From contig NC_079876.1 in assembly GCF_029227915.1 (NCBI RefSeq), positions 25,322,328 to 25,386,327 on the forward strand: a DNA stretch of 64,000 nt, read 5' to 3'. Positions 5,911 through 49,429 of this stretch are shown piece by piece (the first letter of the stretch is position 1; each line of letters starts with the position of its first letter). The notes below the pieces were generated by a model. The model made no database searches. It had not been told where the DNA came from and saw only the letters and a program-made list of their open reading frames with translations. The stretch is from Hydractinia symbiolongicarpus. Taxonomy: Eukaryota; Cnidaria; Hydrozoa; Anthoathecata; Hydractiniidae. The position numbers and the translations under genes are program-made.

Positions 5911-6916
5911 TCATTGCTCATCTCCGTACGCTTTGCGTCCATAACCAGAACCCCCATGACCACCATATCCGCCTCTACCTCCACCATATCCGCCTCTGCC
6001 ACCACCGTATCCGTACCCGCCACCATAACCACGTCCTCCATAACCTCCGTACCCGTGTCCACTTCCGTATCCGTATGTTGGATCACCATATGCCTTGTGT
6101 CCGTAGCCATATCCACCATATCCGCCTGTTACACTTCCATATCCGTAACCGCTTCCATAGCCTCGTCCTCCGTAACCACCAAGTCCGTATCCACTTCCAT
6201 ATCCACTTCCATGTCCACTTCCGTAATTGTATGATGGGTCACCATATGCTTTGTGTCCATATCCATATCCACCATATCCGCCAGTTACACCTCCATATCC
6301 GTAACCGCTTCCATAACCTCGTCCTCCATAACCACCAAGTCCGTATCCACTTCCATATCCACTTCCATAATTGTATGATGGGTCACCATATGCTTTGTGT
6401 CCATATCCATATCCACCATATCCGCCAGTTACACCTCCATATCCGTAGCCGCTTCCATAACCTCGTCCTCCATAACCACCAAGTGCGTATCCACTTCCAT
6501 ATCCGTATGTTGGATCACCATATGCTTTGTGTCCGTAGCCAGAGTATCCACGCCTTCCGTAGTTTCCATATCCTGCTCCGTATCTGGCACCTGCGTAACC
6601 GCCTAAGCCACCATATCGTCCGCCATATCCATGACCGCCATATCTTGCTCCGTGGCTACCATAAGTATACACGTTTTTATAGATGTACGAACTAGGATCG
6701 CTTTCCTCCTCTATAAAATAAATATAAGTAACGATTATTAGATTTAATACATGACACAGTTTTTTTTTGTTTCGCAAGTAATGTACAATAATAGTGATAA
6801 AGAATGCTGTCCATTGTTATTGTTAAGGTGTATATGTATATTCTGTTACGAAACGAGTTACACTTACCCGCAAATGCTCCAGCAAGGAAGCAAACGAGAA
6901 GAATCCAAAGTTGCAT
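5911..6916 (-). CDS. Gene 1: secreted Gly/Tyr-rich KAYGDP-repeat protein
   Basis: Two coding exons, 6868-6916 and 5911-6710, are joined across a 157-bp GTAAGT...TATAG intron in phase 1. They give 282 residues. Exon one encodes a 16-residue signal peptide, MQLWILLVCFLAGAFA. The mature part starts EEESDPSSY. It then has a 50-residue Arg/Tyr/Gly segment and modules running from DP(S/T)Y to HKAYG, with KAYGDP four times and a final KAYGDEQ before TGA. Repeats are built of [16 protein letters not shown] and [11 protein letters not shown]. The mature chain has no Cys, Met or Trp. The start is the first ATG after the leader-exon acceptor at 6923/6924, and it matches the five paralogues. It is likely an extracellular structural protein cross-linkable through Tyr; that role is inferred from composition. 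It is the most isolated member of the cluster and the only one ending in Q and TGA. Confidence 0.85.
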
Positions 6917-7039
6917 GTTGAATCTAAAAATGAAGCACACAAGCAGGTAAAAATTAAATGCCAATAGACATTGCTGTACAAAATGGAAAGTGTTGTTATG
7001 AACACATTCAATAATCTTAAGCATGGTTTGAAAACTAAC

Positions 7040-7117
7040 CTTTTTCACTAAACAGCACGTACAAGGCTCTTTCAAGTGAGAATGATTTCTAGATATTCCG
7101 CTACTCCTATATATACC
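7040..7117 (-). promoter_or_regulatory. Gene 1 TATA box and non-coding leader exon
   Basis: TATATATA at 7108-7115 is followed about 25 bp downstream by the family initiator/leader motif AATCATTCTCACTTGAAAG (minus strand, within 7066-7088). A donor G|GTTAGT follows at 7039/7040. The acceptor at 6924-6925 (TTTTAG|ATTCAAC) sits just before the ATG. The transcription start is inferred to lie near 7085. Confidence 0.7.
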
Positions 7118-7127
7118 TTTTTGTAGA

Positions 7128-7228
7128 GAATGCCATGCTGTCAAATGAACTCTTAAAAAACGATTCGGTTCAGTGATGATATATAAACGCATGTGGAACA
7201 CATCTTAAAGTGCACTTTGTGGACCTTC
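7128..7228 (-). promoter_or_regulatory. Gene 1 upstream conserved module
   Basis: Contains, in order on the plus strand, TGCCATGCTG, AAATGAA, CGATTCGGTTCAGTGATG, ACGCATGTGGAAC and GTGCACTTTGTGGAC. The same order recurs upstream of genes 4 and 5 and more weakly gene 6. The sequence is non-coding and lies 15-110 bp upstream of the TATA box, which suggests an enhancer or proximal promoter element. Confidence 0.55.
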
Positions 7229-7239
7229 TGTGGTGGCAT

Positions 7240-9120
7240 TTTTTATGTCAACGAAGTCAAAACAAGGATGTAGATTGGAAGCGTTATTTAATGACAGTTG
7301 TAACCAACGAGACCAATTAGTTAATGATGCAAAACAGTTATTGAAGCAAGTTTTAAACTTGCAAAAACGTACGTGATAAAAAATTATACTTTTTTTAATA
7401 CTGATCCATAAGATTAGGAGCTAAGATTATTTACTAAAATTACCTTTTTTAATAAATATGACAGCTTAATGGAGCTAAAGAACGGTAACACTCCGTATTA
7501 AGTCTGCAAAAAAAAATCTTCAATAGATAATATGCATTTGCCAGCATCACGACATGGGAATCTCATTTTACCATGTAAAATAAGATAGATGTGGATAAAG
7601 TCGAGGTAAAAAAGTGAAAGGTTTTCTTTGTAAGCAGTATTTGCAAAGAACGCATCTAATTTTATTTAACCCGATATGAATGACTTGCCAGTATTTACAA
7701 AAGTTCATAACAGTTTGCACAGGTTTGTACAATTGCGCGCATTCTGGTAGGTAAAGAGAAAGATCGTATAATATGGCTATTCATGAAGATTTAAAGACCT
7801 TTTAAGTAAAGTGGCCCGTGGTTTATATGTCCATAAGTCTTAATTATAACATTATGTTGCACGAAAAGTCCTGTATAATTATATCCATAACTTTCTAAAT
7901 AAAAACATTCTTCGTGCAGATTTAAATATAAAAAACATTTAGCTAGATATCAAAACATGTTTCTGCCTACACCATCTCCCTTAATGTTAACTGGGTAACA
8001 TATGCAAGCACTTAAAACTGCAATTGACTGCGAAATGTACAAGATTTGGTTTGTCTGTCTTAAATATTTCAAAATAGAAGTGATTCACCAAATTTGCTGA
8101 GAAAGAGTGTTCAAACAATACCAACTCATTATACGAAGCTGGGTAGTAACAAATACCATTTTTACGGTCAGATTGTAGCTAAGTCTCGTGAGATAAATAT
8201 ACATTGAAACACAAAAATGTTTATCAGGAATAAACGAAACGAACAAATTTTTCTGGAGCTGGATGTGCCTATTTTTATCACTTTCTCAGTTTTAACAATT
8301 CTTATTTGCGTTCTTTCTAAAAATTGGCATATGATTAAGTTCACGATAATATTTTTTTCTTGAGATTGGAAGAAATAGAGAGTATTGAAATTACCTTCTT
8401 TGTAAACACATATTTATATAGCATTACAAAGAATAAAAAATAGTTGTTCAAAACTTTGTTTGTTTTTCTAGACTCTTGATCTTTTATTCGATGAAGGTAT
8501 TCAGACCAAGTGCGGTCTATATGCTCCTAATCCTTAGAAAAATATTAGCCTATTATGCCAAAAATATGTACAGTTTTTGAAAATTGACGAATAAAATCAC
8601 CTTATTTCTTAATTCGATTTATTTACTTGTATTCAGTAATATAATCAGTCAGGTTAGTCAACCCAGTAAAGTGTACAAGAAGTTTCTATGTGTCAACTGT
8701 TGGCAAAACTGTGTTAGGTATGGTAGGAGGGTCTCAAAGTCACTATTGGCGTGTGAAAGTCCCTTTCTATATACTTGGTCACATGTGTTTTAAGTAGCTA
8801 TTCAAGTTAGCATATCTGTAAATAAATGCATTGACCAATACTTCACAGCAGGTAATCAAAATTCTACTTTTGCGAAAACATAGGGCAGGCAAACAGCTTA
8901 TTGTGCTTTGTAATTTTCCCGCAACTACCTATATTAAGACCAAAACTGGGTGAAACTGCAGAATATGCACTTTACTGATATCTGAGGACTCTTAGTTAAG
9001 TGAACCTGGAGAAGTTTACAAAGCGGGTGGCTAATGCGACAAGAATTTGAATGTTGGGCGGATATTTAAACAGGATTGGTAATTAAGGTATAGTTTGGAA
9101 CTAGGGAGAATTTATGACGC
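7240..9120. other. No gene seen
   Basis: AT-rich intergenic DNA. The open frame at 8584-8793 (69 codons) has no recognisable domain, promoter or splice support and looks like chance. Confidence 0.45.
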
Positions 9121-9127
9121 CGCGAGT

Positions 9128-9193
9128 GCCTAGCATCAGACAACATTGATATGACTATACCTAGCATCGGACAACATTGATATGACTAGACGT
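9128..9193. repeat. Two-copy direct repeat, about 32 bp
   Basis: CCTAGCATCxGACAACATTG followed by ATATGACTA occurs twice in tandem with one or two differences. It looks like a local slippage or duplication product. Confidence 0.8.
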
Positions 9194-9569
9194 AGTAAAT
9201 GCTGCTGCACAAAAGATGGAATTAGAATCCATTTAACACATTAAAATCAGTATTATACCACAGTTCCTTAAATAGTTTTCATGAACCAAAAACGAAGAAA
9301 GAAATAAAATAAAAAAAGGGCACAGCAACATGAGAAAACATTGTATTCGATGTTACTGTAATATGGGCTACAGAGACATTCCTATTCTCCCTATCCTTCG
9401 GTATCACGGTTATAAAATAATTAAAAGTCAGGCTATATTCTACTTTCTTTTACGGGTTAATCTCATAGATTTAGAACTGGTAGCAAGCACAATGGTAGCT
9501 GAAAATGTAAAACAAGCAACATTGCGGAAAAATCGCGAAAAGGTACACTCATTATTTTTTATAAGCATA

Positions 9570-9985
9570 CGGGTAAATTGGGCTCAAGCTTAATATGCTT
9601 AAGATTTTCCCAATTTGAGCCTGAAATTATGCTTAACGTATGCTTAATTTCAAAACTCATTTCATAGTCTGATACATATTGCGTTTGATATGAACACTGC
9701 AATGATCTCTTTAACATTCGAATCTTTCTTACTAGCTACTGGACTGAGTTAAATATTTTGTTCCATTTATTTGTACATAGTTTAGTTCAAAAGATTATTT
9801 CATGCAAAAATGCTGTTTCCTATCACTTAACCTCGTTTTTTGTGTGATACTATTTTTTACACTTGATTTGGGAAGAAATGGAAGTGAGGGAAAAAAATTC
9901 CAAGGCTGGGAAATATGCTTAGTATATGCTTATTTTTTAAAACATGTGAGCTTAAGTATGCTTATAAACTTTATGCTTATAAAAA
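9570..9985. repeat. ATGCTTA-rich repeat region
   Basis: An inverted pair, GGGCTCAAGC (about 9577) and TTTGAGCC (about 9615), is followed by scattered ATGCTTA words at 9594, 9629, 9640, 9914, 9926, 9957 and 9973. It could be the remains of a small inverted-repeat element. Limits are uncertain. Confidence 0.35.
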
Positions 9986-12455: not shown

Positions 12456-12487
12456 TTTCGTATCAAGTCAGTTGACTTGATACGAAA
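12456..12487. repeat. Perfect palindrome, 15-bp arms
   Basis: Arms TTTCGTATCAAGTCA and TGACTTGATACGAAA are separated by GT. They would form a cruciform or hairpin, and the arms carry no mismatch. No associated coding sequence or T-run makes it look like a terminator. Confidence 0.85.
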
Positions 12488-12664: not shown

Positions 12665-13195
12665 CTTAACCCGTGGAAAATTCCATGAGGTGTTACCCCT
12701 CGTACATGTATTCCGCTTTCGCTATTTTTTTGTTCCTTGTCGGTCTGTTGACATAAAGTAAAGAAATACGAACGGGGTTATTATTATAATTATAGGTGCA
12801 ATGATTGTGCTATTTTCGATTACAAAACCCATGATTTTTACTTCAGCTCACAGGCGGACAATCCACGGGTTCACCGTTCTTTATATATTGCATTTCATGT
12901 TTCCGTAATACGACTTCTTTCTCGCGCGCAAGCAGACAGACTGAACACGGTTATTATTAAAGGATAGTCGTTAACCCGTGGAAAAATCCACAGGGTCGCT
13001 CGTCCTTTATATATCGCATTTTGTGTTTCCGTAACACAAAGACAAAGAGACGCACGAACAGACAGACGGAATACGGCTATTATTAAAGAGACTAGTCGGT
13101 ATGCCGTGGATAAATCCAGGGGTTCACCCGCTTTTTTATATAGCATTTCGTGTTCTATAACACGAGTTTTTCTCGCTTCTCGTTTTTTTGAGCGT
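12665..13195. repeat. Tandem array of the 128-bp family repeat
   Basis: Three consecutive units start near 12848, 12976 and 13104, with a weaker partial unit near 12668. Each has an inverted CCGTGGAxAAATCCACGGG-like head, a TTTATATAxxGCATTTxxTGT stretch with CCGTAAxACG, then GACAGACxGAAxACGG and TATTATTAAAG. Spacing between matching landmarks is about 128 bp. Single copies lie near 1.25-1.43 kb, and fragments near 2.78, 3.75, 37.12 and 40.64 kb. Confidence 0.75.
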
Positions 13196-14790: not shown

Positions 14791-14825
14791 GGGTATTGAT
14801 ACAGTGTTTATTGCTCTTGATACGA

Positions 14826-22419: not shown

Positions 22420-23373
22420 TTATTCCTCATCTCCATAAGCGTTATGTCCATATCCACCATAGTTTGATCCATAACCACCATAGCTGCCGTATCCAGTACT
22501 TCCATAACCTGTGTATCCGGAATTACCATATCCATAGGTATAAGATGGGTCGCCATAAGCTTTATGACCGTAACCGGCATAACCATGTCCTCCATAGTTT
22601 CCGTATCCGGCACCGTATGATCCTTGATTTCCATACCCAGAGTTTCCGTAACTGCCATAACTGCTTCCAAGTCCATATGAGTAGGTTGGATCACCATATG
22701 CCTTGTGTCCGTATCCGGAATATCCATGTCCGGCGTAATTTCCGTATCCGGCACCGTATAATCCTTGATTCCCATATCCAGAGTTTCCATAACTGCCATA
22801 ACTGCTTCCAAGTCCGTATGAGTAGGTTGGGTCACCATATGCTTTGTGTCCGTAACCACTGTAGCCGTTTCCACCGTAGTTTCCAGACACTACACCGTAT
22901 GAACCGTAACCATATCCACCATACCCAGCACTGTTTCCGTTATATCCGTAGTTGCTTCCAGCATGACCGTATGTATAGCTGGGGTCTCCATAAACCTTAT
23001 TTCCGCCATATCCTAGTCCATTGTGACCGTTATATCCATACCCATTTCCATAACTTCCATAGGAGGAGCCTTGTCCATATCCGTATCCACCATAGTTTGA
23101 ATATCCATATACACTAGGATCACTTTCTTCTTCTAAAAAGAGAAAAAACATGAAATCAGGAGCAAGTTTAGACTTTTTTACTTAAGTAATTTTTTTTATG
23201 ACAGTTATAATTGTTAGAGACAAAAGGGCAATGCCTGGGAGGATATTTTTATTTCCTACTAACAATATATTTTACGTCACCTATGCAAAGTCGCCTGTTT
23301 GCAGCAGAATTGTAAAATACTCACCGGCTAATATGCCAACAAAGAGGCAAGCAAGTGCGATCAAAAGCTTCAT
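22420..23373 (-). CDS. Gene 2: secreted Gly/Tyr/Asn-rich KAYGDP-repeat protein
   Basis: Coding exons 23325-23373 and 22420-23132 are joined over a 192-bp phase-1 intron (GTGAGT...TTTTTAG). They give 253 residues. The signal peptide is MKLLIALACLFVGILA and the mature start is EEESDPSVYGYSNYGG. One variant module ends in NKVYGDP and three end in HKAYGDP; the chain ends HNAYGDEE. Compared with genes 1, 4 and 5, the filler is richer in Ser and Asn (SSYGSYGNSGYGNQG) and lacks the GGRGYG blocks, so it has few charged residues. There is no mature Cys. AATAAA overlaps the TAA stop. It is nearly a mirror copy of gene 3, with the same length and order of modules. A structural matrix role with Tyr cross-linking is inferred from composition and signal peptide. 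The long plus-strand open frames over it are shadows. Confidence 0.87.
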
Positions 23374-23467: not shown

Positions 23468-23550
23468 CTTTGTATTCTTCTCTTGAAGCAGTACGTTTAA
23501 AGCTCTTTCAATTGAGAATGATTTTTGGTTGCCTCAAACTTGCTTATATA
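23468..23550 (-). promoter_or_regulatory. Gene 2 TATA box and leader exon
   Basis: TATATAAG (plus 23543-23550 as CTTATATA) is followed by CAACCAAAAATCATTC and CAATTGAAAGAGCTTT, then ACGTACTGCTTCAAGAG, ending at a CAAAG|GTATG donor (23467/23468). The acceptor GTGTAG|GATCAAC lies at 23381-23382. From TATA start to donor it spans 83 bp, the same as genes 3, 4 and 6. Confidence 0.75.
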
Positions 23551-28480: not shown

Positions 28481-28563
28481 TATATAAGCTGGTTAGCGAC
28501 AACCAAAAATCATTCCTACTTGAAAGAGCTTTAAACGTACTGCTTCAAGAGAAGAATACAAAG
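28481..28563 (+). promoter_or_regulatory. Gene 3 TATA box and leader exon
   Basis: TATATAAG is at 28481-28488, followed by CAACCAAAAATCATTCCTAC at 28500 onward, then TTGAAAGAGCTTTAAACG and TACTGCTTCAAGAGAAG. The CAAAG|GTATGC donor is at 28563/28564 and the GTTTAG acceptor ends at 28701. The transcription start probably lies near 28508. Confidence 0.75.
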
Positions 28564-28708: not shown

Positions 28709-29612
28709 ATGAAGCTTCTGATCGCACTTGCTTGCTTATTTGTCGGCATATTAGCCGGTAAGTTTCGCAAAATTCGTTACTACAAAACTTTATTTTTTTC
28801 TTTATTTATTGTCCTGTATAATTATAATAAAATTATTGAATGCTAAAGGACTGAAAAAAAAATTAACTAGCTTCTGATTTTTTTTTATTTTATCTTTAGA
28901 AGAAGAAAGCGACCCCAGTGTATATGGATATTCAAACTATGGTGGTTACGGATATGGACAAGGTTCCTCCTATGGAAGTTATGGAAATGGATATGGATAT
29001 AACAGTCACAATGGACTAGGATATGGGGGAAATAAGGTTTATGGAGACCCCAGCTATACATACGGACATGCGGGCAGCAACTACGGATATAACGGAAACA
29101 GTGCTGGGTACGGTGGATATGGTTACGGTTCATATGGAGTAGTGTCTGGAAACTACGCTGGAAACGGCTACAGTGGGTACGGACACAAAGCATATGGTGA
29201 CCCAACCTACACATACGGACTTGGAAGCAGTTATGGCAGTTATGGAAACTCTGGGTATGGTAATCAAGGATTATACGGTGCTGGATACGGAAACTACGCC
29301 GGACATGGATATTCCGGATACGGACACAAAGCATATGGTGACCCAACCTACTCATATGGACTTGGAAGCAGTTATGGCAGCTACGGAAACTCTGGATATG
29401 GGAATCAAGGATTATATGGTGCAGGACACGGAAACTATGGAGGACATGGTTATGCCGGTTACGGGCATAAAGCTTATGGCGATCCATCTTATACCTATGG
29501 ATACGGCAGTTCCGGTTATGCAGGTTATGGAAGTACTGGACACGGTAGCTATAGTGGTTATGGATCAAACTATGGTGGATATGGACATAATGCTTATGGA
29601 GATGAGGAATAA
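28709..29612 (+). CDS. Gene 3: secreted Gly/Tyr/Asn-rich KAYGDP-repeat protein
   Basis: Coding exons 28709-28757 and 28900-29612 are joined over a 142-bp phase-1 intron. They give 253 residues, the same length as gene 2. The signal peptide is MKLLIALACLFVGILA, identical to that of gene 2, followed by EEESDPSVYGYSNYGG. There is one NKVYGDP module, three HKAYGDP modules and a terminal HNAYGDEE. Differences from gene 2 are scattered substitutions without indels, for example VSGNYAGNGYSG in place of VSGNYGGNGYSG. This points to recent duplication or continuing gene conversion. There is no mature Cys. AATAAA overlaps the TAA stop at 29608-29613. A secreted matrix role is inferred. A short open frame running through the signal exon into the intron is not the real product. 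Confidence 0.88.
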
Positions 29613-30479: not shown

Positions 30480-32335
30480 TAAACTTTATTTGTATTTCAT
30501 GATATCGTCCTTTACCAGAAAATAAGAAGTTATAGCAAGAGACCGATCAATTAAAGTTTCACTTTCAAATTAAAACTGATCCTAAATCCTATACTCTAGG
30601 GATTTAATAAAAATGTTTTCTTAATATGCTCTCGAAATGTAGATGAGAAAAACATGGTATCATTATTTTCAGTTAGTTTATGATTCAAAATAGGCATGCA
30701 TTAAAATAGTTTTTATGTTTGCGTGTTCTAGTTCCTTTTCTTTTTTTAACTTTCAGATTAAATTTCAATATTTCTGCGAATTCCTCGCGTTGTTATGTTT
30801 GCACCATACCTCTAGCAAATAAGAGCTCGGTCAGTTATCGAAGCATAACCTTGCTTACAGAATATAGCGCGATGTTTAATACGCTGAAATCTTTTATTTT
30901 AGCAAATTCAACATTGTTACTTCGGTTATAAAGTTGTACCTAATAATGGATCATGAGCTAGTAATGGTTAAGCCAATTGCTTTCTTAGTCTAGCATTGGT
31001 GAAATTTGCGTACACAGTATCTTACTTAACATAAAGATTATTGAGCGATTCGTATACAAGAGTCGCACAACTGACTTGAAAAAAACGACCATTTTATCAA
31101 ACTTTCTCAGGTTCAGCATTCCATTTTATTATATTTTATTTGAGGCTCGAGCTATAAGATTATGTTATTAATAAGTCTGAAGCTAAATATTCTTATCCAC
31201 GTCATGCTATAGAAAAGCGTTGGCGATGTTTGCATGACCTTTCACTGCTTCCTGCATTATAAATCAGCTCCACAAATTTTTAGCGATTCTTGCTTCTACA
31301 AAGTTCAAACCTGAAGTTTTTCTGCACTCTAGATTATTTTTGGAAACTACATGCATCACGTTGACCATTACATTCTGTCACTGTCGAATACTTACAACAA
31401 ATGTAAAATATCCGCAGTTGCATAGTCCTATTTAGCAAAATAAATCTTTTGGTAACTGTAGTAGGTATAAGACGAGAGAAACGTAAACGATTTTTATGTA
31501 GGCTGCTGTGTAATAAAACCGAGGAGCTATAGCAGCTACCAGAAAATTAAATCATGAATGCACTGGAGAGAATCGCATTAGTGCAACCCGCAGCAAAATT
31601 ATGAAAAAAACACAGCACCTGTTTTTCTGCCGTGGCACAGTTGAAAAAGGTTAAAACAAATTAGAAACAAGTTTTATGTAAGAATTCATGAGAAATATTG
31701 GAGGTTGACTGATGGAAGTATGCATGAGTCTAAATCATGTCAAGTATGAGAAATAATGATTAAAAACAACATGTTTTTAAAATAAGATTTTTGATCTGAA
31801 AAACGATCTCTACAATTCCTGAGGTGCTGGCTGAAGTCATATTTTTATTGAGCCATGGGTTTTCTGCATGTATGGAGAACGACTGCCTCACATTAGCCTG
31901 AACCATAAAAAGATGATTCTTGTTGTTAATCACCTAATGTGATTAAAACGTTTGATAGCAGCATAATATTTTATGAAAAGAGGTATATTTTTTCTCATCA
32001 TGGGCACACAAAAATAGTCTTTATTCAAAAAGTTATTGCGCAAAAGGAGTAATTACAATATGCTAACATTGGTTTAGTGAATGTTAAGTATGTTATCATA
32101 TGGCTACTGTTAGGGCTTGCAGTCCCGTAATAATAAACAGTAATCATTCCAATCGCTGTTAACTGCACAGTTAACAGCGATTGGAATGATTACTGTTTAT
32201 TATTACGGGACTGCAAGCTGGGAATTACCATATATCATTATCACACAGTACAAAAACGATCTAAAATCTGCTCAAAGTAACAGTTTTTGTCCAGGACAAT
32301 TTCGAAACCTGGCGTTTTTAAATGGTTTTGTTTTA
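30480..32335 (+). repeat. Non-coding block B, copy 1 (longest)
   Basis: Shares collinear sequence with 36190-37100 (same strand) and 38170-39930 (inverted). Landmarks are CCAGAAAATAAGAAGTTATAGC at about 30518, TAATAATGGATCATGAG at about 30941, AAAAGCGTTGGCGATG at about 31214, CATGCATCACGTTGACCATT at about 31350, and TTGCGCAAAAGGAGTAATTA at about 32036. No long open frame is conserved. It may be a mobile element or part of the duplicated locus. Confidence 0.65.
32115..32218. repeat. Perfect 104-bp palindrome, 51-bp arms
   Basis: Left arm 32115-32165 is the exact reverse complement of right arm 32168-32218 around a 2-nt CA centre. The homologous block B copy at about 38250-38310 (inverted) contains only the right-arm sequence in diverged form, so the left arm appears to be a later inverted copy. 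Confidence 0.9.
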
Positions 32336-33415
32336 GTTGCAAAACAAACTTTTTGTATAGCAATAAAAACGTATTTTAACCTTTAAATTTGTTTTAATGT
32401 AAAAAAAACGAAGCTTTTTGTGTATACTTCATCATGTTAAAATTAAAAGAAATCTTTATATACACAAATGTTTAAAGTGTAAAAACCACTCAGGTGAAGA
32501 ACAAAAACGGTCCCTCCCCCGTATTGTTTCTTCTGCCCTTTTGAGAAGTACGCGAGTGAGACGAACGCTTGATAATAAGGGCATTTGTGATTTTGAGGCA
32601 ACATCGGGCACTATTCAGTGACACGCACATCCTTGAATGTCACACATTCAAACATTCGTGATAATCGTAGCCCCTTCTGAAGAAACAGATTTAAGTATAG
32701 TGAATAACGGAAGTTAAAAGTTTTTACTGAGGCATATAAACAGAAACGACTAAAGTTTGTTTTGAAGAATGTCAGCGTGTTTTGGACTGCTTAAGAAATA
32801 TTGTTTTACTTAGACGGTGTAGGTTTTGACCATAGAAATAATCCCAACGCGTAAGCTAGAGCGTTTCATTAATGGGATGTAGCCGGGCTATGGATTGTCA
32901 ATGACAACGAAAAGGACAGGGGAAGTAATGTAAGTGTTACCATTTAATAAACGTAAGTGTCAAATGAGTCCCAAGCAATCCAATTTTCCGATTAATTGTT
33001 ATACCGAAATGGTCAATTGATAACTTCAAGATCTTTGAAAATCTCTATGTATTACTCAAGGAAACATCAAAACATCTGCAATAAGTTCAAATCATTTCAA
33101 AAGCAAAATAATAGATTTCAAACTGCGATTTGAGTAAATTAAATCCACAGGGACAGCGATAGTGACACGATGTCACTGGATACACTAAAACTCTTTTACA
33201 ACTCTTTACGAATCACTTTACGCAAGCTTAGCAGAAGATATGGCCAAATATTTAATAAATCCAACCGAAAATAACATGATTACATAGTTTTCATTATAAT
33301 TTATGACAGAGATGGATCAAAATTACCAGTACTACCACTTGCGATAGAGGTCACGTATTACATACACAGTTAATTTAGGTGAAGCTGTTAACCTTTACAA
33401 ACTTAAAACGTTTTA
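32336..33415. other. No gene seen
   Basis: Intergenic. The 67-codon frame at 32418-32621 has no recognisable domain or splice support. Confidence 0.45.
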
Positions 33416-35727: not shown

Positions 35728-35810
35728 CTGTGTTTTCTACCTTGAAAGCAATAAGAGTAAAGCTTTTTTAAGTGAAACTGATTTTTAACATTTTTATTCG
35801 TCTTTTATAC
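35728..35810 (-). promoter_or_regulatory. Gene 4 TATA box and leader exon
   Basis: TATAAAAG (minus; plus 35803-35810) is followed by AAAAATCAGTTTCAC, TTAAAAAAGCTTTACTC and TTGCTTTCAAGGTAG, then an ACACAG|GTTAGC donor (35727/35728). The acceptor GTTTAG|AATCAAG lies at 35641-35642. TATA start to donor is 83 bp. The leader intron is kept although the coding intron is lost. Confidence 0.72.
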
Positions 35811-37100: not shown

Positions 37101-38165
37101 GAAATTTCTCAGGTTTATGTAGCAGGACCAGGCAACAGCTATTATTAGAGAGATTACCCGGGTTAAGCCACCAGTAGCAATAAAAAGTATTGTTATGTAA
37201 TTTTAGCATATCTCAGAGGCAAAAACTTTGACAGGACGTGCTGTATTAACAAATATGTTTTAAGTATTATCTACAAAAAAGGTACAAAAACAACGATTAA
37301 AGTATAGGACAGGTTCACGCTTGCTGATTACTCAAATATTCACGGTGTCTGTGTTACCTGGTTCTAATAGGGGTAATCAAATTTGTTAACAGGATCAAAA
37401 GACAAGGTAATCCATAATTTTAACCTTCATTGTGGCCAGCTTTTAATCGAAACATTAAGACAATTAACAGTACAACTTAGAATATTTGAAGATAACGCTG
37501 ATAATAAAGTAATGTAATGTGCAAAATCCTGCAAATTTAGACGTCGTAGAATAGAAGAATAGAATTCTTTTGTGTGTAAGAACATAGTAATGCCTCAATG
37601 GAATAAATTTTAGCAAGAATTAAATTTCGCGAATTTTTTTGCATTAGCGGAATGCTTTAATTGCCAATGTGGTCATTCGCGAAAGTATGTTCCATTTTTT
37701 CGGTTTCACTATTCGCGAAATTCATTTTTTCAAAACTAGTTTGGCAACATCTTTGAGAAAAATAACGTCCATCAATCGGAATGCTTTCGCAATGATGTTG
37801 CAAGGACCGGAAATTAACGGAAGTGTTTTGTATAAACATACAACACTCACAATCGAGACCCAAGTTTTGCTATTGTTAAAAAATGGTGTCATTTGAGACA
37901 TATTTTAAAATTTTAACTTCTAATTTATATTATAATATCCGTATAAGTCCGTCTGTCACGCAAAGTGATGACTGCTATAACAAGAGAAAGTAAAGGCAAT
38001 AAATAAAAGACTGGCGAACCCGTCAATTATCCACCTGTAATGGACTAGTTGCTATATATTTTTCTATACAGCTGCTTAAAAGAAAGAGTTTTAATTTAAC
38101 TTGACAATGTGTATACAGGAAAACATATAAATTTTAAGGTCAACATATGACTTTTATTGCTATAC
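37101..38165. other. Centre of the gene 4/5 inverted duplication; no gene
   Basis: Unique-looking spacer. A fragment of the 128-bp repeat tail (CAACAGCTATTATTAGAGAG) lies near 37135. Words like GCGAAATT...TTCGCG near 37625-37730 suggest a small palindromic element. Opposite-strand open frames at 37657-37896 are unsupported. Confidence 0.45.
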
Positions 38166-38169
38166 AATA

Positions 38170-39930
38170 AAGTTGTTGTGTAACATTAAACAATACCATC
38201 TGAAAACCTTGGGGTTTAAAACCTATTACTGTAAGCAGAAATCGGAGATTGTGTGATAATGATACATAGCTTGTAGTGTCGTAATATTAAACATTGATCA
38301 TTTTAATCGTAGTTACAGTAACTATGTCTTAATAATCTCTAAACCAATGTTAGTAGATTTTAATTACTCCTTTTGCGCAATAACATTTTCAGTACATTCT
38401 ATTTTTGTGTGGTCATGATGAGTAAAAAATCAACGTGTTCTCTTCCATAAAATTTTATAGTCAGCTCCTATCATATTTACTCACAATAGCATATTATCAG
38501 CGTGAATCATTTTTCAATGATGCAGCTTAAATGTGAAGCAGACAAACATATTCCAACATTGTTCATTAAGTCTTACTCCAAATGTTTTATTTTTCAACTG
38601 TACTACGGTAAAAATAAAGGTGCCGTGTTTTTCCATAATTTTGCTGCAGGTTACAGTTATGCGATTTGAAGGTTTGACATGTTGGATACACGTCAAACCT
38701 TCAATATTTGAAGTAGTTGCTATAACTCCTCGGTTTAAATACACGGCAGCTGACATATATATCGTTAACGTTTGTGTCGTCTTATGCTAATTACAGTTAC
38801 CAAAAGATGTATTTTGCTAAATTGGACTATCCACCTGCATATATTTTACATTTTATAACAGTATTCGCCAGTAACATAGTCTAATGGTCAACGTGATGCA
38901 TGTAGTTCCTGAAAAATAATTTAACGTGGAGGCAAAATTTAAGGAATTTTAGGTCAGGTTTAAAGTTAAAAAAACAACAAGAAACGCAAAAATTTGTAGA
39001 GATTGTCTATAATGCAGGAAACAGTTAAAGGTCATGTAAGCATCGCCAACGCTTTTTATGACATGACATGGATAATAATATTTGGCTTCAGATTTACCAA
39101 TAACATTATTATATAGATTGAGCCTCAACATTGCCGATTAATTGAAAAAATGTTAGAATGGAATACTGAACGTGAGAAAATCTGATGTAAGTGCTAAGGG
39201 AAGCTGTATTACGAATAGTTTGACTAGTGCTAATCTGAAAAAGCAGTGACTTGAATCTTTGAGATAATCCATTATTACAACTGCATAATCTCAATGACAT
39301 AATTGCAATAAAGAAAGCTGTTAAATACACTAAAAAAAATATCTACCTATGACTTAACATACACACGACTAGACTTTGGTCACTGGCTGCGCACTGCTGG
39401 CTGAAAGTGCGGTGCAAAGATAATAACAAGAAATAAAGAAGAAATTTAGACCTAAATAATTAACTAAACTAAACTAAAAACAAGACTAAAATAATTCTTT
39501 AATTATTAATACGATCAACAATTAGATTATTAAACGTCTCTCATTTTTAATTACAACTTTGTGATTGTGCAGAATCAAGATTTAATAAATCAATACTATA
39601 AATCATAACAAATTAAAATAATGACACCATGTATTTCTCATCTACAATTCGGGAACAAATCAAGAGAAAAGGTTTATTGTTAAATAAAAGCAAAAATCTA
39701 AATCTAATTCAGCCCATCTATCACATTCTTGCTAATTCCTAGGGGATAGGATTTGAGAATAACTCCACAACTTATCCTGAACCCTTAATATGCGAAAAAG
39801 ACTTCGTAGATCCCGCTATAAGGCTTTATTATCTGATAATATAATGTTGCTTCTGTAAAAATTGTGGGAGGAACAAACGTGTGTGTTCTTAAAAACAATT
39901 CATTTACGTTGCTCATAAAGTAATACTTGA
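38170..39930 (-). repeat. Block B, copy 3 (inverted)
   Basis: Reverse complement of block B copy 1. Landmarks are TTACTCCTTTTGCGCAATAA (about 38365), AATGGTCAACGTGATGCATG (about 38883), CATCGCCAACGCTTTT (about 39040), ATAATCCATTATTACAA (about 39264) and ATTCCTAGGGGATAGGATTT (about 39736). It also holds an unrelated 13-bp-arm hairpin at 38666-38704. The left arm of the 32.1-kb palindrome is absent here. Confidence 0.65.
38666..38704. repeat. Hairpin, 13-bp perfect arms
   Basis: TTGAAGGTTTGAC and GTCAAACCTTCAA flank a 13-nt loop. It lies within block B copy 3. No RNA gene family recognised. Confidence 0.8.
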
Positions 39931-40135: not shown

Positions 40136-40222
40136 TATAAAAGACGAATGAAAATGTTGAAAATCAGTTCCACTTTAAAAAAGCTTTAAACGTACTGCTT
40201 TCAGAGTAGAAAACACACACAG
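40136..40222 (+). promoter_or_regulatory. Gene 5 TATA box and leader exon
   Basis: TATAAAAG is at 40136-40143, then TTGAAAATCAGTTCCAC, TTTAAAAAAGCTTTAAACG and TACTGCTTTCAGAGTAG, and an ACACAG|GTTAGC donor at 40222/40223. The acceptor GTTTAG ends at 40334. TATA start to donor is 87 bp because of an extra ACAC. Confidence 0.72.
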
Positions 40223-40341: not shown

Positions 40342-41392
40342 ATGAAGATTTGCATCCTTCTTGCTTGCTTTCTCGTTGGAACATTTGCAGGTAAAGACAA
40401 GTTGTTTCATATCAAAGTACAGCTTATTTAATAAATTTAAGTTTAACTTACATGTTTGATTAAGGCACAATAATAGCCCTTTTATTAGTGAGGTTGATTT
40501 TGTTTTAGCATTTATTATTGTTATTGGGCAATAGGCGTTAGCCAGTTAAGAAGTCATGGAAATTTACCAAACACAGCAAGGACTATAAAATTATATTGCA
40601 ATTCGTAGTTTGAGGTTTTCTGCGTGGTTAGAACGTTGGTCGACAAATAAAATACGGCTGTTGTTAAAAAGATTTTTTAAATAACAAAATCTCATATTAA
40701 AGCTAAACATTTATACTAAAATTTATTGTGCAGATGAGGAAAGTGATCCAACATACGGATATGGAAGTGGATATGGAAGTGGATACGGACTTGGCAGTTA
40801 TGGAGGACGAGGATATGGAAGCGGCTACGGATATGGAGGCGTAACCGGCGGACATGGCGGATATGGATATGGACACAAAGCATATGGTGACCCAACATAC
40901 AGTTACGGAAGCGGATATGGAAGTGGTTATGGAAGTGGATATGGAAGTGGATACGGACTTGGTGGTTCTGGAGGACGAGGATATGGAAGCGGTTACGGAT
41001 ATGGAGGCGTAACAGGGGGGCATGGTGGGTATGGATATGGACACAAAGCATATGGTGACCCATCATACGGTTATGGAAGCGGATATGGAAGTGGATATGG
41101 AAGCGGATATGGAAGTGGATACGGACTTGGTGGTTCTGGAGGACGAGGATATGGAAGCGGTTACGGATATGGAGGCGTAACAGGTGGACATGGTGGTTAT
41201 GGATATGGACACAAAGCATATGGTGACCCATCATACGGTTACGGAAGTGGTTATGGAAGTGGTTATGGAAGTGGATATACACTTGGTGGTCATGGAGGAC
41301 GAGGATATGGAAGCGGATACGGTTATGGTGGTGCTCGTGGCAGTTATGGTGGATATGGCTACGGACATAAGGCATATGGAGATGAAGAATAA
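40342..41392 (+). CDS. Gene 5: secreted Gly/Tyr-rich KAYGDP-repeat protein
   Basis: Coding exons 40342-40390 and 40734-41392 are joined over a 343-bp phase-1 intron (GTAAAG...TGTGCAG), the longest in the family. They give 235 residues, the shortest member. The signal peptide is [16 protein letters not shown] and the mature start is [13 protein letters not shown]. Three modules end in HKAYGDP and the chain ends HKAYGDEE. Filler matches genes 1 and 4 but has His and Ser substitutions ([21 protein letters not shown]). The frame is open throughout and the large exon contains no Met codon in frame, so a start-to-stop search misses it. The intron carries a piece of the 128-bp repeat tail (AATACGGCTGTTGTTAAA, about 40651). 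AATAAA overlaps the TAA stop. Function inferred as for the paralogues. Long minus-strand frames here are shadows. Confidence 0.85.
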
Positions 41393-41399
41393 ATAAAAT

Positions 41400-42030: not shown

Positions 42031-43185
42031 TCGCATTGTGTTACAGTACCTATTGCGTCTTGGTTTTGTGTTTTCGCTTTTACAAACAATATGTGCGTCA
42101 TTACCGCTCAGTTTGAGTGATTTCTCGTTGCATGTTTTATGCCTCGTTAAAGATTGTTTCGTTGAATGAATTTTGAGTATATATCTGATATAGGGAGAAG
42201 AAGCTGCTTCATAATACTGAGTGGACGACTTGATTTTTTATTTATGTACCGGTTAATTTCGTTTGATTTTTTGTAAGTTTTTGGTGTCCATATGCAAATC
42301 TCCACCGTCTTAATAGTGCTTACGAATTACCCAATTGTAAGATGTAGAGGAATTACCTGGAGCTTCTGATAGGCCAAATCTACTTCCACAGGTAGTTGCA
42401 TCAGAGGTAACATAACAAGCTTCAGTCCTGCGCAGAGTAGATGTTCATGAACAAGGTATCCACTTTAAGTACCTTTATCTAGAAATAACAATTTTATTCC
42501 CTCCCCTTTTTAAATGTGAGTTCTGGAATTTAATAGCTCCACAATGTCCGCATTGAGGAGCTATTAAATTCCAAAACGAGAAATATTTTAAATGTTGTCA
42601 TGCGGGAAAGGCTCTTCTTGCCTTGTTGGAATTCACTGCTGAAAGTCCCAGCGAAACACTTTCGTTATTATAAGGCGTACAATAATGCATTTACTTTTGT
42701 TTATTTGTCATAAAATCTTCCAATACGATGTCAAGAACCTCCCAGTTGGGGGATATGTGGTTAGTTATTCCACAGGTACGTGGTGTTCCACAGGTACAGG
42801 TGCTTTATTACCCGTTCGAAATAAAGTGCCTAATTATAATAAATTGTATATTACAATGGGTTCTAATGCATTAAATATGCACATCGAGAATCGAACACAC
42901 ACTGATTTTAAATAAGAAACACTGCAAATGATTTAAAATGTTCTCGTGAATTAAGAATGAGGGATTTTCCGTGTTCTGCAGTTTATAATAAAATAGCTGT
43001 AATGAAATGCAAAGATAGAGCCAGGGCAGCGGTGGAAAACAGAACACCTCCTGTTGTAAGATGGTAATGCGTCAGGGTAATGCTCGTAGAACGTATAATA
43101 AAACTTTACATCAGCAATGAAGTTCAATGATATATTAATTAACACCATGTGGTATGCCACAACACTGCTTTAACGTTTAAGTCGG
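42031..43185. other. No intact gene; hairpin at 42524-42573
   Basis: TGGAATTTAATAGCTCC (42524-42540) and GGAGCTATTAAATTCCA (42557-42573) are perfect 17-bp arms around 16 nt. The 76-codon frame at 42685-42915 has no recognisable domain. It may be upstream debris of the helicase relic that follows. Confidence 0.5.
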
Positions 43186-43189
43186 ATGT

Positions 43190-43425
43190 GTTGCAATGCT
43201 TTTTAGGAATCTGCCTCTAAAGGATGGTTTTTAAAATGGTACAAGGCCAATCGTTTGTATCTTCCGATGTTACTGATTGTTAGATTCTTACTGGCAATTG
43301 CAGTTTCCTTTATAATGTATTATGGATTCACCATAAAGAAGGTTGGTATATATTTGCGTAGACCTTTCTTTAAGCCTGGCCAATTGCATGCTGCTTTTCA
43401 CGTGTACGGTTATTTGATTCAGTAA
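43190..43425 (+). pseudogene. PIF1/Helitron-like helicase C-terminal fragment
   Basis: Two frames match the end of PIF1-like helicases. The first, VAMLFRNLPLKDGF-stop-NGTRPIVCIF, corresponds to the family MLLRNL....GLCNGTRLIV. The next frame reads MYYGFTIKKVGIYLRRPFFK followed by PGQLHAAFHVYGY, corresponding to the family .TINK.QGQT...VGIYL..P.F.HGQLYVA.SRV. The NK.QGQ Walker-type segment is deleted, and stops and frameshifts are present, so it is inactive. A Helitron or a host PIF1 pseudogene are both possible; no Rep/HUH part is visible. Confidence 0.65.
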
Positions 43426-43449
43426 AAGTAAAGATTGTTAATACTTACC

Positions 43450-45105
43450 TGGACCGATTGCTACGTAGAGAAAGAGCGAACAACGACGAAGCATGCTGGA
43501 ACGAGTATAAAGTTCAGCGTAATCGGTGTACCAGTGCTGTGCGGAAAGTCAAAGCATCTTACAATCAAAGAATGCTCAATGATAACCGCCTGAACTCGCG
43601 CAAGTTCTTGAATACTATCAAGTCAATTTTTCCAACCAAGCCCAAAGTATCTTCTCCAAGAACTGATGATGCAAAACACCGCGTAAATTGCTTTGCTGAG
43701 TATTTTTCGACCGTTTTTTCTGTTTTGAAAAAAACAGCTTATCCTCTGATTGACTTTGTATGGCGGTATCCGAAAAAAAAACCCCGACACCATCGGTCAC
43801 AGTATTCTACTCGAAAAATTAATGTTGTATGGAATCAGTGGACCTGAGCTGTCATGGTTTACTGACTACTTGTTCAACAGATCCCAACATGTTGAGCTAA
43901 ATGGTTTACTTTCGAATACCTGCTGTGTTACTGGCGTACAATCTTAGGTCCCCTCCTATTCATCACGTTCTTCAATGATACAAAAGAAAGTATCAGCAAG
44001 TGTGATATCTTTCAGTACGCGGATGACACTGTTCTCTTGTTTGCTGGTAAAGACATTCAAACCACCCTGAACGTGGATATGACAAGTGTGAGTAGATACT
44101 GTGAACAAAATGAACTGTTGCTGAACCTTAAAAAGGGAAGACGGAAGTTATGCTGTTTGGAACTTCCCAACGACTGAAAAGAAACGGAAGGGAACTCAAT
44201 ACCGTTTACAACAACACCCGCATCAACTTCGTTACTGAGTATGTCTATCTTGGTAACCTGCTTGATAACCACCTGTCTTTAACAGCCAACTTCGATCGAG
44301 CCGTCAAGAAAGCATGTGGTCGATTGAGAATCCTGTCCAACGTACAAAAGAGCCTTACCATCGAGGCTGCCACTCTCATCTACAAGATGATGATGTTGCC
44401 GATCATAACCTACAGCTCACTATCAAGACCTGCTTCACCGAAACCCAACGACGGAAGTTCTCTTCGATTGAACGCCGTGCTGAAAGGAGAGTTGGAACAC
44501 CAGTTCAGCCTATCGTAAGAGTTTTGAACAACAAGTCCGTTCTCTGGTTATAAAATGTCTAAACAAAGAGTTATGTCACGAAACCTTTGACAAATACTTT
44601 GAGGTTCAATGACACAAAAAAAGGGACGAGAAATAACGATCTCTGTCTAAAATTGCCAGCATTGAAGCTTGAATTCACAAGATCTGGTGCTAAATTATTT
44701 AATAATTTAGCTTTAACAGAACGAAAATCGCTTCTACAATAATTATTCTGATCTTATTTTAATACTATTCTCTTTCGATTTCTATGTATGCTGAACAGAC
44801 TTTTATCTTATGTTTGTCATAACTTAATTTTTCCCGAGTTTATCTGGAGTTAATTTCCACAATTCACTGTCTTTTTCCATATCTTATTCGTAATGATTTT
44901 TTCAGTATTCTTACCTATTTTACCCTTTAATTTACAATTTCAGTCTTTTCTACCTTTATGCTGTTTCTGTTTTAATTTTTAGCATATAACAGGACAAACA
45001 CTGATAACAGTTTCTTTATATAAAATATTTTGTAAATATGTATTTAGAAACTGAAGTTTTTTATCCTGTATAGATATTTGCGAATAAATAAATAAATAAA
45101 TAAAG
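43450..45105 (+). pseudogene. Broken CR1/L2-like LINE with reverse transcriptase
   Basis: Pieces occur in ORF2 order on the plus strand. First is a Lys/Arg-rich linker after the missing endonuclease (43458 onward, AVRKVKASYNQRMLND). Next are LMLYGISGPELSWFTDYLFN (about 43818), GPLLFITFFND, QYADDTVLLFAGKD with the catalytic YADD (about 44015), and ELLLNLKKG. After a frameshift come MLFGTS and FVTEYVYLGNLLDNHLS, and finally a tail, GTRNNDLCLKLPALKLEFTR and SGAKLFNNL, ending near 44732. The endonuclease and RT fingers are missing. Several frameshifts and an internal deletion near 43.75 kb make it dead. The 3' end has the microsatellite (AATA)n at about 45085-45103, as many CR1/L2-type LINEs do. 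Confidence 0.8.
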
Positions 45106-45560
45106 ATTATGTAGGGAATAGGTGCTACACAAAATACGTTTTTTATCCACAAGTGTTATATCTATAGTAATTACCGAAACTATCAGACAACAAGTTTTTT
45201 GTTTACATCTAGAAAAGTATGTATATATGTTTTTAATTCCGTATACATTACAGCAAGTAATTGTTTACCTTGACAGTGTTTTATGCCGATTTTCAATGAA
45301 AACTAAAACAATAAAGGGAAACTTTATCATTCTGATATTCTATCTGGTAAGAAATTCATTACAAAGTGTACTGGTCGAAACAGGTTTAAATTATGAGTAA
45401 CAAGAAGGACTTGCTTTTACTAATTCAAGAAAGGTGCTTTTTCACGTAATGGGTAAAGGCAATAAACAAAATACTGCTCGAGCAATTATTGCTAAAAAAT
45501 TAGATATTCTTTTTAAAACAATATAATGTGGCGTAAATAATAGGTTCCATTAGCCAAATG
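45106..45560. other. No gene seen
   Basis: Intergenic. The 92-codon frame at 45122-45400 starts at a non-ATG codon and has no recognisable domain. Confidence 0.4.
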
Positions 45561-46275
45561 TTTGGTTGGTGCATTTTGGTCATCGTCCCAAGGATGAGGG
45601 GAGAAAAATGCAATTAGGAGACGTTAAAATTAGAGAGGAAGTTTTCAACAAGATACAGAAAAAAGCACGAAAACTTGAAATAGTGTAAGAGCACTGTGTC
45701 ACAAAAGGTCATTTATTCCGAAAGCATTTGGAAGTGATAGGTGTCAAGTAATAATATTCAAGGACCATGTTTTACATTGCCCTAGTAAAAGGTGTAAAGA
45801 AAGATTCTCCCTTTTTTCTTACAAATTTGTCATAAACATAATTTGAAATATGCCTTAATAAAATCTGGCACTTCCCAAACTAAGTTACCAAAGGGTCTGT
45901 TGGCGAATTCATGAGTAGTTTAAAGAAAGAATTAGAAAGTAACACAGCAGACAAAGTTTAAAATCGTAGCACTCGAATAGCAACTGTTACTAACCAAGAT
46001 ATAAATCCTTTAAAAAAGGTTTAAAGAGTTACAACGTTACAACACGGCTTCAATATCCCCCCAAAAATATATGATGTTATCTCATCTCGCTCTGGTCAAA
46101 GTAACTCAATTTTACAAACAATTCAACAACAGCTTCTACAAAATTGGAGTTTGAAAAACTATTTTTTGAAAGAGCTTCGATAAATAACTGTACATTTGCC
46201 ACAAACTTTGGTCCAGATCTAATTTCTTCGCCTCGCAAGCGACGAAGTGTAATTTTAGAAGATAATAGTCAATAA
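45560..46275 (+). pseudogene. Possible eroded coding sequence, unidentified
   Basis: Plus-strand frames broken by stops read like old protein: GHRPKDEGRKMQLGDVKIRE and VFNKIQKKARKLEIV (about 45575-45690), KGSVGEFMSSLKKELESNTA (about 45893), then TLQHGFNIPPKIYDVISSRS (about 46035) and ILQTIQQQLLQNWSLKN, and FGPDLISSPRKRRSVILEDN near 46210-46270. I do not recognise the family. Its position after a LINE suggests transposon origin, but a host pseudogene is possible. Confidence 0.35.
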
Positions 46276-46279
46276 GAAA

Positions 46280-47990
46280 CAACTAATTTTATTTTTCTTT
46301 GTTTTAAACATGACTAAATTTACTCAAAAACTTTATATTGTACAATAAAAACATTCAATGTTTACGTGATATTCGATTTCGAAAATATATTTTTTAGTTC
46401 AAATGCGCGTTTCATAAAAGACATGTTTTCAATAAAAAGATGGTTTCTACATCGTGATATTTTCTGTTGTAATATATTAGTATTATATGTAGTTATTATA
46501 TTGAATATATTCCATATAATAACTATGTATTTCGGGCCATACCTTCCAATATTGACCTCTGTCATGTATTCTTTGACGTTGGTCAATACTGTCCCGTATT
46601 TTCCTTCTTTTTTACTATGCTGCTTGTTTATGCTGCGAATTTTTATATTTTTTATTACACCCGCATGGCACATTTATAAATCCCATGCCTTTTAAAACCT
46701 TAGATATTGGCCATTAGTCGAAACTACCCCTAATAGTCTAAGACATCTATTTAATTTAAAGAAGTTAATAACTAAATGTAATAAGATTATTTTTAGAACT
46801 TGAAACTCAAAAGAGAGATTTATTTCATCAAGAGGAATCATTCTGCAAATTTTGGACACCTGATTACCTTAAGGGCGTAAATCTTTGCGGTCACAAAATG
46901 TTGCGGAACTTATTTTTGAAAAATCGCAATATTTGATTTCGCGGAACTAAAAAAAATTTGCGTGTTGCAAAATTTAATCTCGTATTTTCTAAAGTTAACC
47001 TAAAAGTCTAGTTGAGTAGAAGTTAAAAAAAATGTAGAGAATCTTTATTCCCTACCTATTTTTTATGTCAATTATCATATTTGAAAAATAATGAAAATAC
47101 AACAGTATAAAAATAGAATTCGTTACAATATATTATCTTTCTTTTTTTCAGAATCACTCAGTTCTATGGTACTACTGACAGACCTTGTTCTTTCTTTAAT
47201 TTTCGTTTTTTCGGGTTCTGGGTTCCGATTTTTTTGGCAGAATATGAACTAAATAAAATAGAATATCTTTATGATATTTTGAAGGAAAAAAATCTTCAAA
47301 ATATTGAAATCGCAAAAATAAGTTCCCTAATTATCTCCTAGGAAGACAGATTCGCAAAAATTAATTCCGCAATTCACAACTCTTTTAAGGCGTCAATCAG
47401 AAAAATTTGTTCCGCAAATAATTCTATTATTAAGGCATTCTGATTATTTGATATTTGATAAAGTGCTGCCAATTTGTTCCTTTCACTACGTAGCATAAGT
47501 ATAAAAAGTTTGATTTGATTCAAAAGAAGGGTAAAGTTGAAGTCCGCCTCCCTGCTGCCAAACTTTCAATTGCTGACACTCCTTAAGATTTTTATGTAGT
47601 TATGGAAAAAGGTGGAACTGGGAACAAAGAAAACACTGAAGTAGTAGTTAAAATCAATCCAATAAAGAGACAAGAACCAACTTTTTTGTCTTGGATTTCA
47701 AAAAGTTAACCAAAAAATAAAAATGTTCCTTATAGTACAATTTTAACTACGGCATCAAACAAAGAAACCTCGTAACTTTTTACTTGTTTCATTAAAATTA
47801 AATTTCCTCATTCGTTATTGCTACTTATTATAACTGCTAATTTCGCAATATAAGTGAATTTGTTCAAAACAGAGGGTATTACTTTTTGTGCCTTTTTGAA
47901 TTTCATAAATGCTTAATAGATAGACATGTTTACAATCTTTTACGAAAAAGAAATAAAAATGTTTTAGTAGATAATATATCTATTCAAGCT
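46280..47990. repeat. Intergenic with candidate GCGGAA/TTCCGC inverted-repeat element
   Basis: Near 46875-46985, words such as GGCGTAAATC, TTGCGGAACTTATTTTTG and TTTCGCGGAAC face inverted counterparts near 47305-47430 (GCAAAAATAAGTTCCC, TTAATTCCGCAA, GTTCCGCAAA). A 560-bp MITE-like element is possible. The 103-codon minus frame at 46362-46673 has no recognisable domain. Otherwise nothing seen. Confidence 0.4.
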
Positions 47991-48023
47991 CCAATCTAGT
48001 TACAATTATTAAAATACAAAAAT

Positions 48024-49429
48024 TTATTCTTCATCGCCATACGCCTTGCGTCCATAGCCGTATCCACCATATCCTCCTCGACCACCATAGCCATAACCGT
48101 TCCTATAGCCGCGTCCACCATAACCACCATATCCGTATCCGCTTCCGTAACCGTAAGTAGGGTCGCCGTATGCTTTATGACCGTAGCCATACCCACCATA
48201 TCCTCCTCGACCACCATAACCATAACCACTTCCATAGCCGCGTCCTCCATAACCACCATATCCGTATCCGCTTCCGTATCCGTATGTTGGATCACCGTAT
48301 GCTTTGTGTCCGTAACCAGAATATCCACGTGTTCCGTAGCTTCCATAACCTACTCCGTATTTACCATGCCCATAACCTCCATATCGGCTTCCGTAACCAC
48401 CATATCTTCCGCCATACCCGCCAAGTCTTCCAGCATAACCGCCATATCTGCCTCCGTGTTTTTTGTATGGATAGACGCTCTTGTATACTTTATAAGATGG
48501 ATCGCCATATGCTTTACGTCCGTAACCAGAGTATCCACGTCCTCCGTAGCTTCCATAACCTACTCCGTATTTACCATGTCCATAACCTCCATATCGGCCT
48601 CCGTAACCACCATATCTTCCGCCATACCCACCAAGTCTTCCTGCATAACCGCCATATCTGGCTCCGTGTTTTTTGTAAGGATAGACGCTCTTGTATGCTT
48701 TGTAAGATGGATCGCCATATGCTTTACGTCCGTATCCAGAGTATCCACGTCCTCCGTAGCTTCCGTAACCTACTCCGTATTTACCATGTCCATAACCTCC
48801 ATATCGGCGTCCGTAACCACCATATCTTCCGCCATACCCACCAAGTCTTCCTGCATAACCGCCATACCTGCCTCCGTGTTTTTTGTATGGATAGACGCTC
48901 TTGTATACTTTGTAGGATGGGTCACCATATGCTTTATGTCCGTAGCCAGAGTATCCACGTCCTCCGTAACTTCCGTAACCCACTCCGTATTTACCATGTC
49001 CATAACCTCCATATCGGCTTCCGTAACCACCATATCCGCCACGTCTTCCTGCATAACCGCCATACCGACTTCCGTGTTTGCCATAAGGATAAACTTTGTA
49101 GGTATATGTACTAGGATCGCTCTCTTCGTCTATGTGTAGAACCAAAAAAGTATAAATTTATCAGCTCTGACAAAATCGAAGTATTCTTTTTACTGAAGTT
49201 TGGTGCATTACGAAATACGCAATAGAAATCATTACCCTCATCCTGACTGGGGACATCTTCTTCTGCAAATACTAAAACAAATAAAAAAAACTTCCTAACA
49301 CAGTGTCGGTATGCCACAGGGACTTAAAATTATTGAAGTTGCCAATGTCTTATAAGCTGTACTTTGTGCGCTGTACTTACCAGCTAGTGTTCCAACAAGG
49401 AAGCAAGCAAGAAGTATCCAAAGCTTCAT
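48024..49429 (-). CDS. Gene 6: secreted Gly/Tyr-rich KAYGDP-repeat protein with microexon
   Basis: Three coding exons, 49381-49429, 49236-49262 (27 nt) and 48024-49129, all joined in phase 1, give 393 residues, the largest member. The signal peptide is [16 protein letters not shown]. The microexon encodes EEDVPSQDE, and the large exon continues DEESDPSTYTYKVYPYG. The first two-thirds is four Lys/Arg-rich modules of about 65 residues ([39 protein letters not shown]) ending in (H/R)KAYGDP. The last third is two gene-1-like modules and a terminal RKAYGDEE. There is no mature Cys. Microexon borders are TTTGCAG|AAG and AGG|GTAATG; skipping it keeps the frame. AATAAA overlaps the TAA stop. Role inferred: strongly basic extracellular structural protein. 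The 314- and 320-codon plus-strand frames are shadows. Confidence 0.85.

Follow-up and report, generated by a model that had tools for sequence, protein, structure and literature searches.

The stretch of DNA analysed here, 64,000 nucleotides long and called the window below, carries between positions 5911 and 49429 six neighbouring genes (g1–g6), probably of animal origin, whose predicted products repeat a KAYGDP motif in Gly- and Tyr-rich chains. What are these proteins made for? We conclude with good confidence that the products of the six genes are secreted silk-like structural proteins, which would be hardened by Tyr oxidation and are possibly bound to chitin. Their probable role is to build up a hardened covering or a glue. 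The silk-like class itself is known and has evolved recurrently, and this cluster is a newly seen example of it.

Composition, charge and predicted disorder of the chains

The presence of a six-gene cluster, proposed in the first-pass annotation, was confirmed by splicing and translation of all six coding sequences, which are intact and contain no internal stop (6/6). The N-terminus of each product is a 16-residue hydrophobic stretch ending in (L/F)A, signal-peptide-like by eye. The mature chains are 219–368 residues long and contain 31.6–46.6% Gly and 21.5–24.7% Tyr, the two together making up over half of each chain; Cys is absent from all six, as noted earlier. The maximum Gly fraction in a window of 80 residues was 0.35–0.55 (6/6). 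The features used by SilkSlider for silk-like structural proteins are a secretion signal and an 80-amino acid (aa) window with at least 25% Gly (excerpts of PMC4944945; the other papers below are likewise cited from excerpts). All six proteins have both features, with the signal assessed by eye.

Net charge at pH 7 was +8.6, −6.5, −6.3, +7.4, −0.6, and +41.6 for g1–g6, respectively. The isoelectric point (pI) was 5.45, 5.71, and 6.76 for g2, g3, and g5 and 8.99–9.72 for g1, g4, and g6. The mature N-terminus is acidic in five of the six chains, (E/D)EESDP, and the C-terminus is GDE(E/Q) in all of them. The single-sequence AlphaFold model of g4 had a mean predicted local distance difference test score of 34.7, with 260 of 280 residues below 50, and its only helix (residues 3–19) lies in the signal peptide. 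The mature chain is thus predicted to be disordered, as far as the g4 model goes.

Modules and Asp-Pro borders

The chains contain 30 copies of the repeat motif, namely, 24 K[AV]YGDP and six terminal [KN]AYGDE, one per chain. The number of K[AV]YGDP per gene (4, 4, 4, 4, 3, and 5 for g1–g6) agrees with the earlier count. The motif did not occur in 5000 rounds of composition-shuffled mature chains. Its residues are mostly constant, the exceptions being Asn for Lys in two copies and Val for Ala in two, and the synonymous codons differ between copies.

Pro is preceded by Asp in 29 of 33 cases, all 29 at module borders or in the N-terminal SDP, and the remaining four belong to YPY of g6. Asp (n = 37) is found in DP (29), in the terminal GDE (6), and as the first mature residue of g5 and g6 (2). 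Shuffled chains contained 0.79 DP on average and 5 at maximum in 5000 rounds vs. 29 observed, although the Asp, Pro, and DP counts are inflated, since the modules are duplicated and not independent. The residue after DP is S or T at all sites (29/29; 24/24 after GDP), and P(S/T)Y is found at 25 of the 29 DP sites.

By our reading of the comparison of the 30 modules as DNA, three kinds can be distinguished:

Lys/Arg-rich kind: g6.1–g6.4 and g1.1; 61–70 residues
GSGYG kind: most of g1, g4, and g5, as well as g6.5–g6.6
Ser/Asn kind: g2 and g3

The layout of g6 is four Lys/Arg-rich modules of 65–70 aa followed by two short ones.

Gene anatomy

The limits of the cluster are the stop codon of g1 and the ATG of g6. 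The coding spans are as follows:

5911..6916, minus strand: g1; signal exon 6868–6916, intron, repeat exon 5911–6710; 282 aa
22420..23373, minus strand: g2; signal exon 23325–23373, repeat exon 22420–23132; 253 aa
28709..29612, plus strand: g3; signal exon 28709–28757, repeat exon 28900–29612; 253 aa
34791..35633, minus strand: g4; one exon; 280 aa
40342..41392, plus strand: g5; signal exon 40342–40390, repeat exon 40734–41392; 235 aa
48024..49429, minus strand: g6; signal exon 49381–49429, repeat exon 48024–49129; 384 aa

The first-pass annotation described a 49-nucleotide (nt) signal-peptide exon common to the six genes and a phase-1 junction lost in gene 4, and both descriptions held. The signal exon contributes 49 coding nt in every gene, preceded by 7 nt of 5′ untranslated region as read from the sequence. 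In five genes, a predicted phase-1 intron, with a GT donor and an AG acceptor, separates the signal exon from a single large repeat exon. In g4, this second intron and the stretch encoding EESDP are absent, and the reading frame continues uninterrupted. Because the region upstream of g4, intron 1 included, still aligns with that of g5, retroposition was rejected as the cause, and a local deletion is the likelier explanation.

One more feature was noticed within g6:

49236..49262, minus strand: 27-nt in-frame candidate exon in intron 2 of g6, with AG/GT borders; would add EEDVPSQDE

It could be an optional exon; equally, it may be a relic, because, by our reading, exon 3 of g2 and g3 starts with a similar sequence. 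Long antisense frames (e.g., 48000–49139, plus strand) were set aside as probable artifacts of reading GGN and TAY codons in reverse. Self-comparison of the window revealed no further repeat exon.

Predicted promoters and noncoding first exons

Each gene has a predicted noncoding exon 1 of 44–57 nt with a GT donor at its end, and intron 1 stops 7 nt before the ATG:

7040..7083, minus strand: exon 1 of g1; TATA at −32/−30
23468..23519, minus strand: exon 1 of g2; TATA at −31
28512..28563, plus strand: exon 1 of g3; TATA at −31
35728..35779, minus strand: exon 1 of g4; TATA at −30
40166..40222, plus strand: exon 1 of g5; TATA at −30
49537..49589, minus strand: exon 1 of g6; TATA at −30

In all six genes, the distance from the first T of the TATA box to the A of a downstream TCAKTY initiator is 30–32 nt. 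A longer initiator motif built from the six promoters had six matches in the window at up to three mismatches, one per known gene, with no match left for a seventh copy (shuffles: mean 0.05, largest 1). TCAKTY is the arthropod initiator consensus, and its occurrence in 6/6 promoters is weak evidence for a phylum other than that of the hydrozoans; the six cases are not independent because the promoters are paralogous.

Evolution of the family

Self-comparison of the window showed two inverted duplicate pairs, g2/g3 and g4/g5; g2 and g3 are 96.4% identical. The ratio of nonsynonymous to synonymous substitution rates (dN/dS) was 0.09 for g2/g3 and 0.28 for g4/g5. For the other 13 pairs, it was 0.18–0.43, which are rough values, given how uncertainly repeat proteins align once they have diverged. 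The gene pairs are under purifying selection. The g1 gene is a mosaic: its module 1 is nearest to g6.1 (71%), its module 4 to g4.2 (96%), and all modules after the first are nearest to modules of the g4/g5 type. Because the modules of g1 differ in their nearest relatives, exchange between genes of the cluster is suggested.

Outside the genes, positions 30606–32390 and 38129–39678 share an inverted intergenic similarity in four pieces at 74–81% identity. Its symmetry axis differs from that of g4/g5, which may point to an extra rearrangement.

Search for relatives

Three protein searches were performed. Scoring was limited to the candidates with the most words in common, so that other Gly/Tyr proteins may have displaced true relatives. 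For the g2 protein, 7971 candidates were scored and none matched at E 1e-3. The g6 protein matched a single candidate of 7990 when E up to 10 was allowed (P0001, 4.7e-4), which on reading proved to be a KR-delimited repeat lacking KAYGD and was set aside. The six-sequence profile had six matches at E 0.2–7.4 among 7979, none of them with KAYGD on reading. Among solved structures, the single match of g4 at E up to 0.1 was a nucleoporin (0.036). Six stretches in viral contigs (searched with g4) and 43 in prokaryote genomes (searched with the profile) reproduced a peptide pattern and encoded no relative; records near the genome of the window were possibly left out of both collections. A Pfam scan of five stop-to-stop family frames (those of all genes except g2) gave no family at an E cutoff of 1. 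The spellings of the KAYGDP module yielded no paper in a full-text literature search, outside of which lie most subscription journals, figures, and supplements.

The family had been called lineage-specific. The lack of a convincing relative in the collections searched fits this term, but the collections seem to hold few animals. The failed searches do not show that the family is new, because the collections seem animal-poor and only some candidates were scored.

Silk-like structural proteins as the preferred interpretation

The signal-peptide-like N-termini, the Gly and Tyr content, the predicted disorder of g4, and the purifying selection agree with the earlier proposal of a structural toolkit of secreted Gly/Tyr proteins; the hardening through Tyr that was part of that proposal is inferred by analogy. 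Before release, the chains would be kept as a dense secretion, either unfolded or coacervate, in which Tyr and Arg/Lys would act as stickers and Gly as a spacer. After release, Tyr would be oxidized to 3,4-dihydroxyphenylalanine (DOPA), quinone, or dityrosine, and this oxidation would harden a covering, a tube, a shell layer, or a glue outside the cells, which may also be attached to chitin. Perisarc, cuticle, shell matrix, tube, byssus, and eggshell would all be possible materials. The opposite net charges of some paralogs (g6, +42 vs. g2, −6.5, and g3, −6.3) would allow adjustment of the mixture. A regular break in the repeat would be provided by the Asp-Pro at every module border.

Several points weigh against this interpretation. 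The exon junctions are predicted from the DNA sequence. A Pfam scan of 17 distinct open frames of the window gave no tyrosinase, peroxidase, or chitin-binding domain. No relative of known function was found among proteins, structures, and viral and prokaryote DNA, in collections that are seemingly poor in animals. For a repeat protein, a model predicted by AlphaFold from a single sequence reveals little about the cross-linked state.

Among known systems, trematode Gly-Tyr eggshell proteins are similar in composition and in Tyr cross-linking, which for the present proteins is the inferred part of the likeness. Their genes lack introns, in contrast to the three predicted exons of five genes here, and we know of no KAYGDP module in them. 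The chains described here share the secretion signal, the Gly-rich repeat modules, and the apparent lineage restriction with silk-like structural proteins, most of which were judged by the authors to have evolved independently (PMC4944945); that class is defined by composition and is not a homologous family. KRMP-3 and prismalin-14 of the pearl oyster are likewise Gly/Tyr-rich, repetitive, and secreted, and chitin binding by the Gly/Tyr-rich region has been shown for KRMP-3 (PMC4498902). In contrast to the separate Lys-rich domain described for KRMP in that paper, the basic residues here are spread through the modules.

A further-reaching version of the silk-like interpretation is a doubtful one: the cluster would be a tunable polymer kit, in which paralogs with shuffled modules and opposite charges, co-expressed from similar promoters, mix into one complex coacervate for an undescribed animal covering or glue. 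The Asp-Pro borders and acidic ends would then be fixed punctuation and P(S/T)Y the preferred sites of Tyr modification. The six paralogs have the promoter layout and the module in common and differ in charge and module length. If co-expressed, they would form a natural series for the question which sequence features govern how soluble and how hard Gly/Tyr materials are and how they coacervate.

Alternative explanations

Three of the alternatives are special cases of silk-like structural proteins. The first, which we regard as a tentative possibility, is that the genes encode arthropod cuticle or eggshell (chorion-like) proteins. The TCAKTY initiator with TATA at −30 to −32 in all six promoters agrees with this, and the CpG observed/expected ratio outside the repeat exons (0.90) would suit a little-methylated arthropod-like genome. 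Neither the initiator nor the CpG ratio is diagnostic, however, and the promoters are paralogous. The five frames scanned revealed no Pfam cuticle domain, including the Rebers-Riddiford chitin-binding RR domain.

It is rather unlikely that the proteins belong to the hydrozoan perisarc, which the first-pass annotation had tentatively suggested, and are hardened through DOPA; nothing in the window points to Hydrozoa. The hydroid exoskeleton is chitinous and tanned, and phenoloxidase has been reported in its cross-linking, while the chemistry of its sclerotization was described as little advanced since 1968 (PMC5316283); the composition found here would suit such a material. The reverse transcriptase and transposase fragments of the window are of widespread kinds and do not speak for a hydroid. 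The fit of the initiator to the arthropod consensus stands against one. If the DNA is from a hydroid, the six proteins are candidate perisarc proteins; otherwise, they add a further apparent origin to the silk-like structural class.

A bivalve origin, with the six genes encoding shematrin-like shell proteins, perhaps those of Dreissena polymorpha, is clearly unlikely. The C-terminus of shematrins is basic, of the RKKKY type, vs. GDEE or GDEQ here. Six shematrin-like transcripts, highly specific to the mantle and with G(n)Y repeats, were described in D. polymorpha, whose genome has a GC content of 35.1% (PMC9210306), and the window has 29–41% in 2-kb steps. The present family resembles shematrins, as described there, in being multi-gene, secreted, and Gly-rich with G(n)Y repeats. 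Nevertheless, the shematrins compared in that paper, from zebra mussel and pearl oyster, were all basic, while three of the six chains here (g2, g3, and g5) have a pI below 7; the comparison is by description only.

More improbable still is a different kind of product, polyprotein precursors cut at Asp-Pro into similar peptides of 42–70 residues, most of them starting with P(S/T) and ending with KAYGD. The position of Pro after Asp in 29 of 33 cases, far above the shuffles, and the restriction of all Asp to DP, the terminal GDE, or the first mature residue would suit such cutting, with the reservation that the duplicated modules do not give independent counts. A precedent exists in GDPH of VWD domains, where the cut at Asp-Pro is autocatalytic, but that cleavage takes place inside the VWD domain and was inhibited by a His-to-Asn change (PMC10880436). 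The sites here are GDP(S/T) and not GDPH, and the scan of five family frames gave neither VWD nor any other Pfam domain. Self-cleavage is disfavored on both counts, the lack of a VWD match in those frames and the absence of the His of GDPH.

Secreted Gly/Tyr-rich antimicrobial peptides, which occur in nematodes, are a very improbable identity: the weak matches P0001, P0004, and P0007 are Gly/Tyr-rich chains broken by dibasic KR sites, but they lack KAYGD on reading, and the chains here have no regular processing site, with dibasic pairs absent from four of six and numbering two in g1 and eight in g6.

Other features of the window

Scans of the window with Rfam (gathering threshold) and for tRNA gave no match, and the GC and CpG values are not specific to any one phylum. 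Mobile elements and repeats were found as follows:

43374–44515: broken retrotransposon, of the non-LTR class by our reading; RVT_1 in frame 43896–44174 (E 3.5e-7)
61903–62376, minus strand: DDE_1 transposase fragment (E 5.9e-6), which we take to be Tigger/pogo-like
32115–32218: self-complementary stretch of 104 bases, 98%
12860–13163: repeat element with a unit of ~126 bases at 12933–13163; a related piece at 1303–1418
51882–52044 and 52755–52916: direct repeat of ~163 bases, 91% identity
37–369 and 2995–3335: direct repeat of ~350 bases, 69% identity

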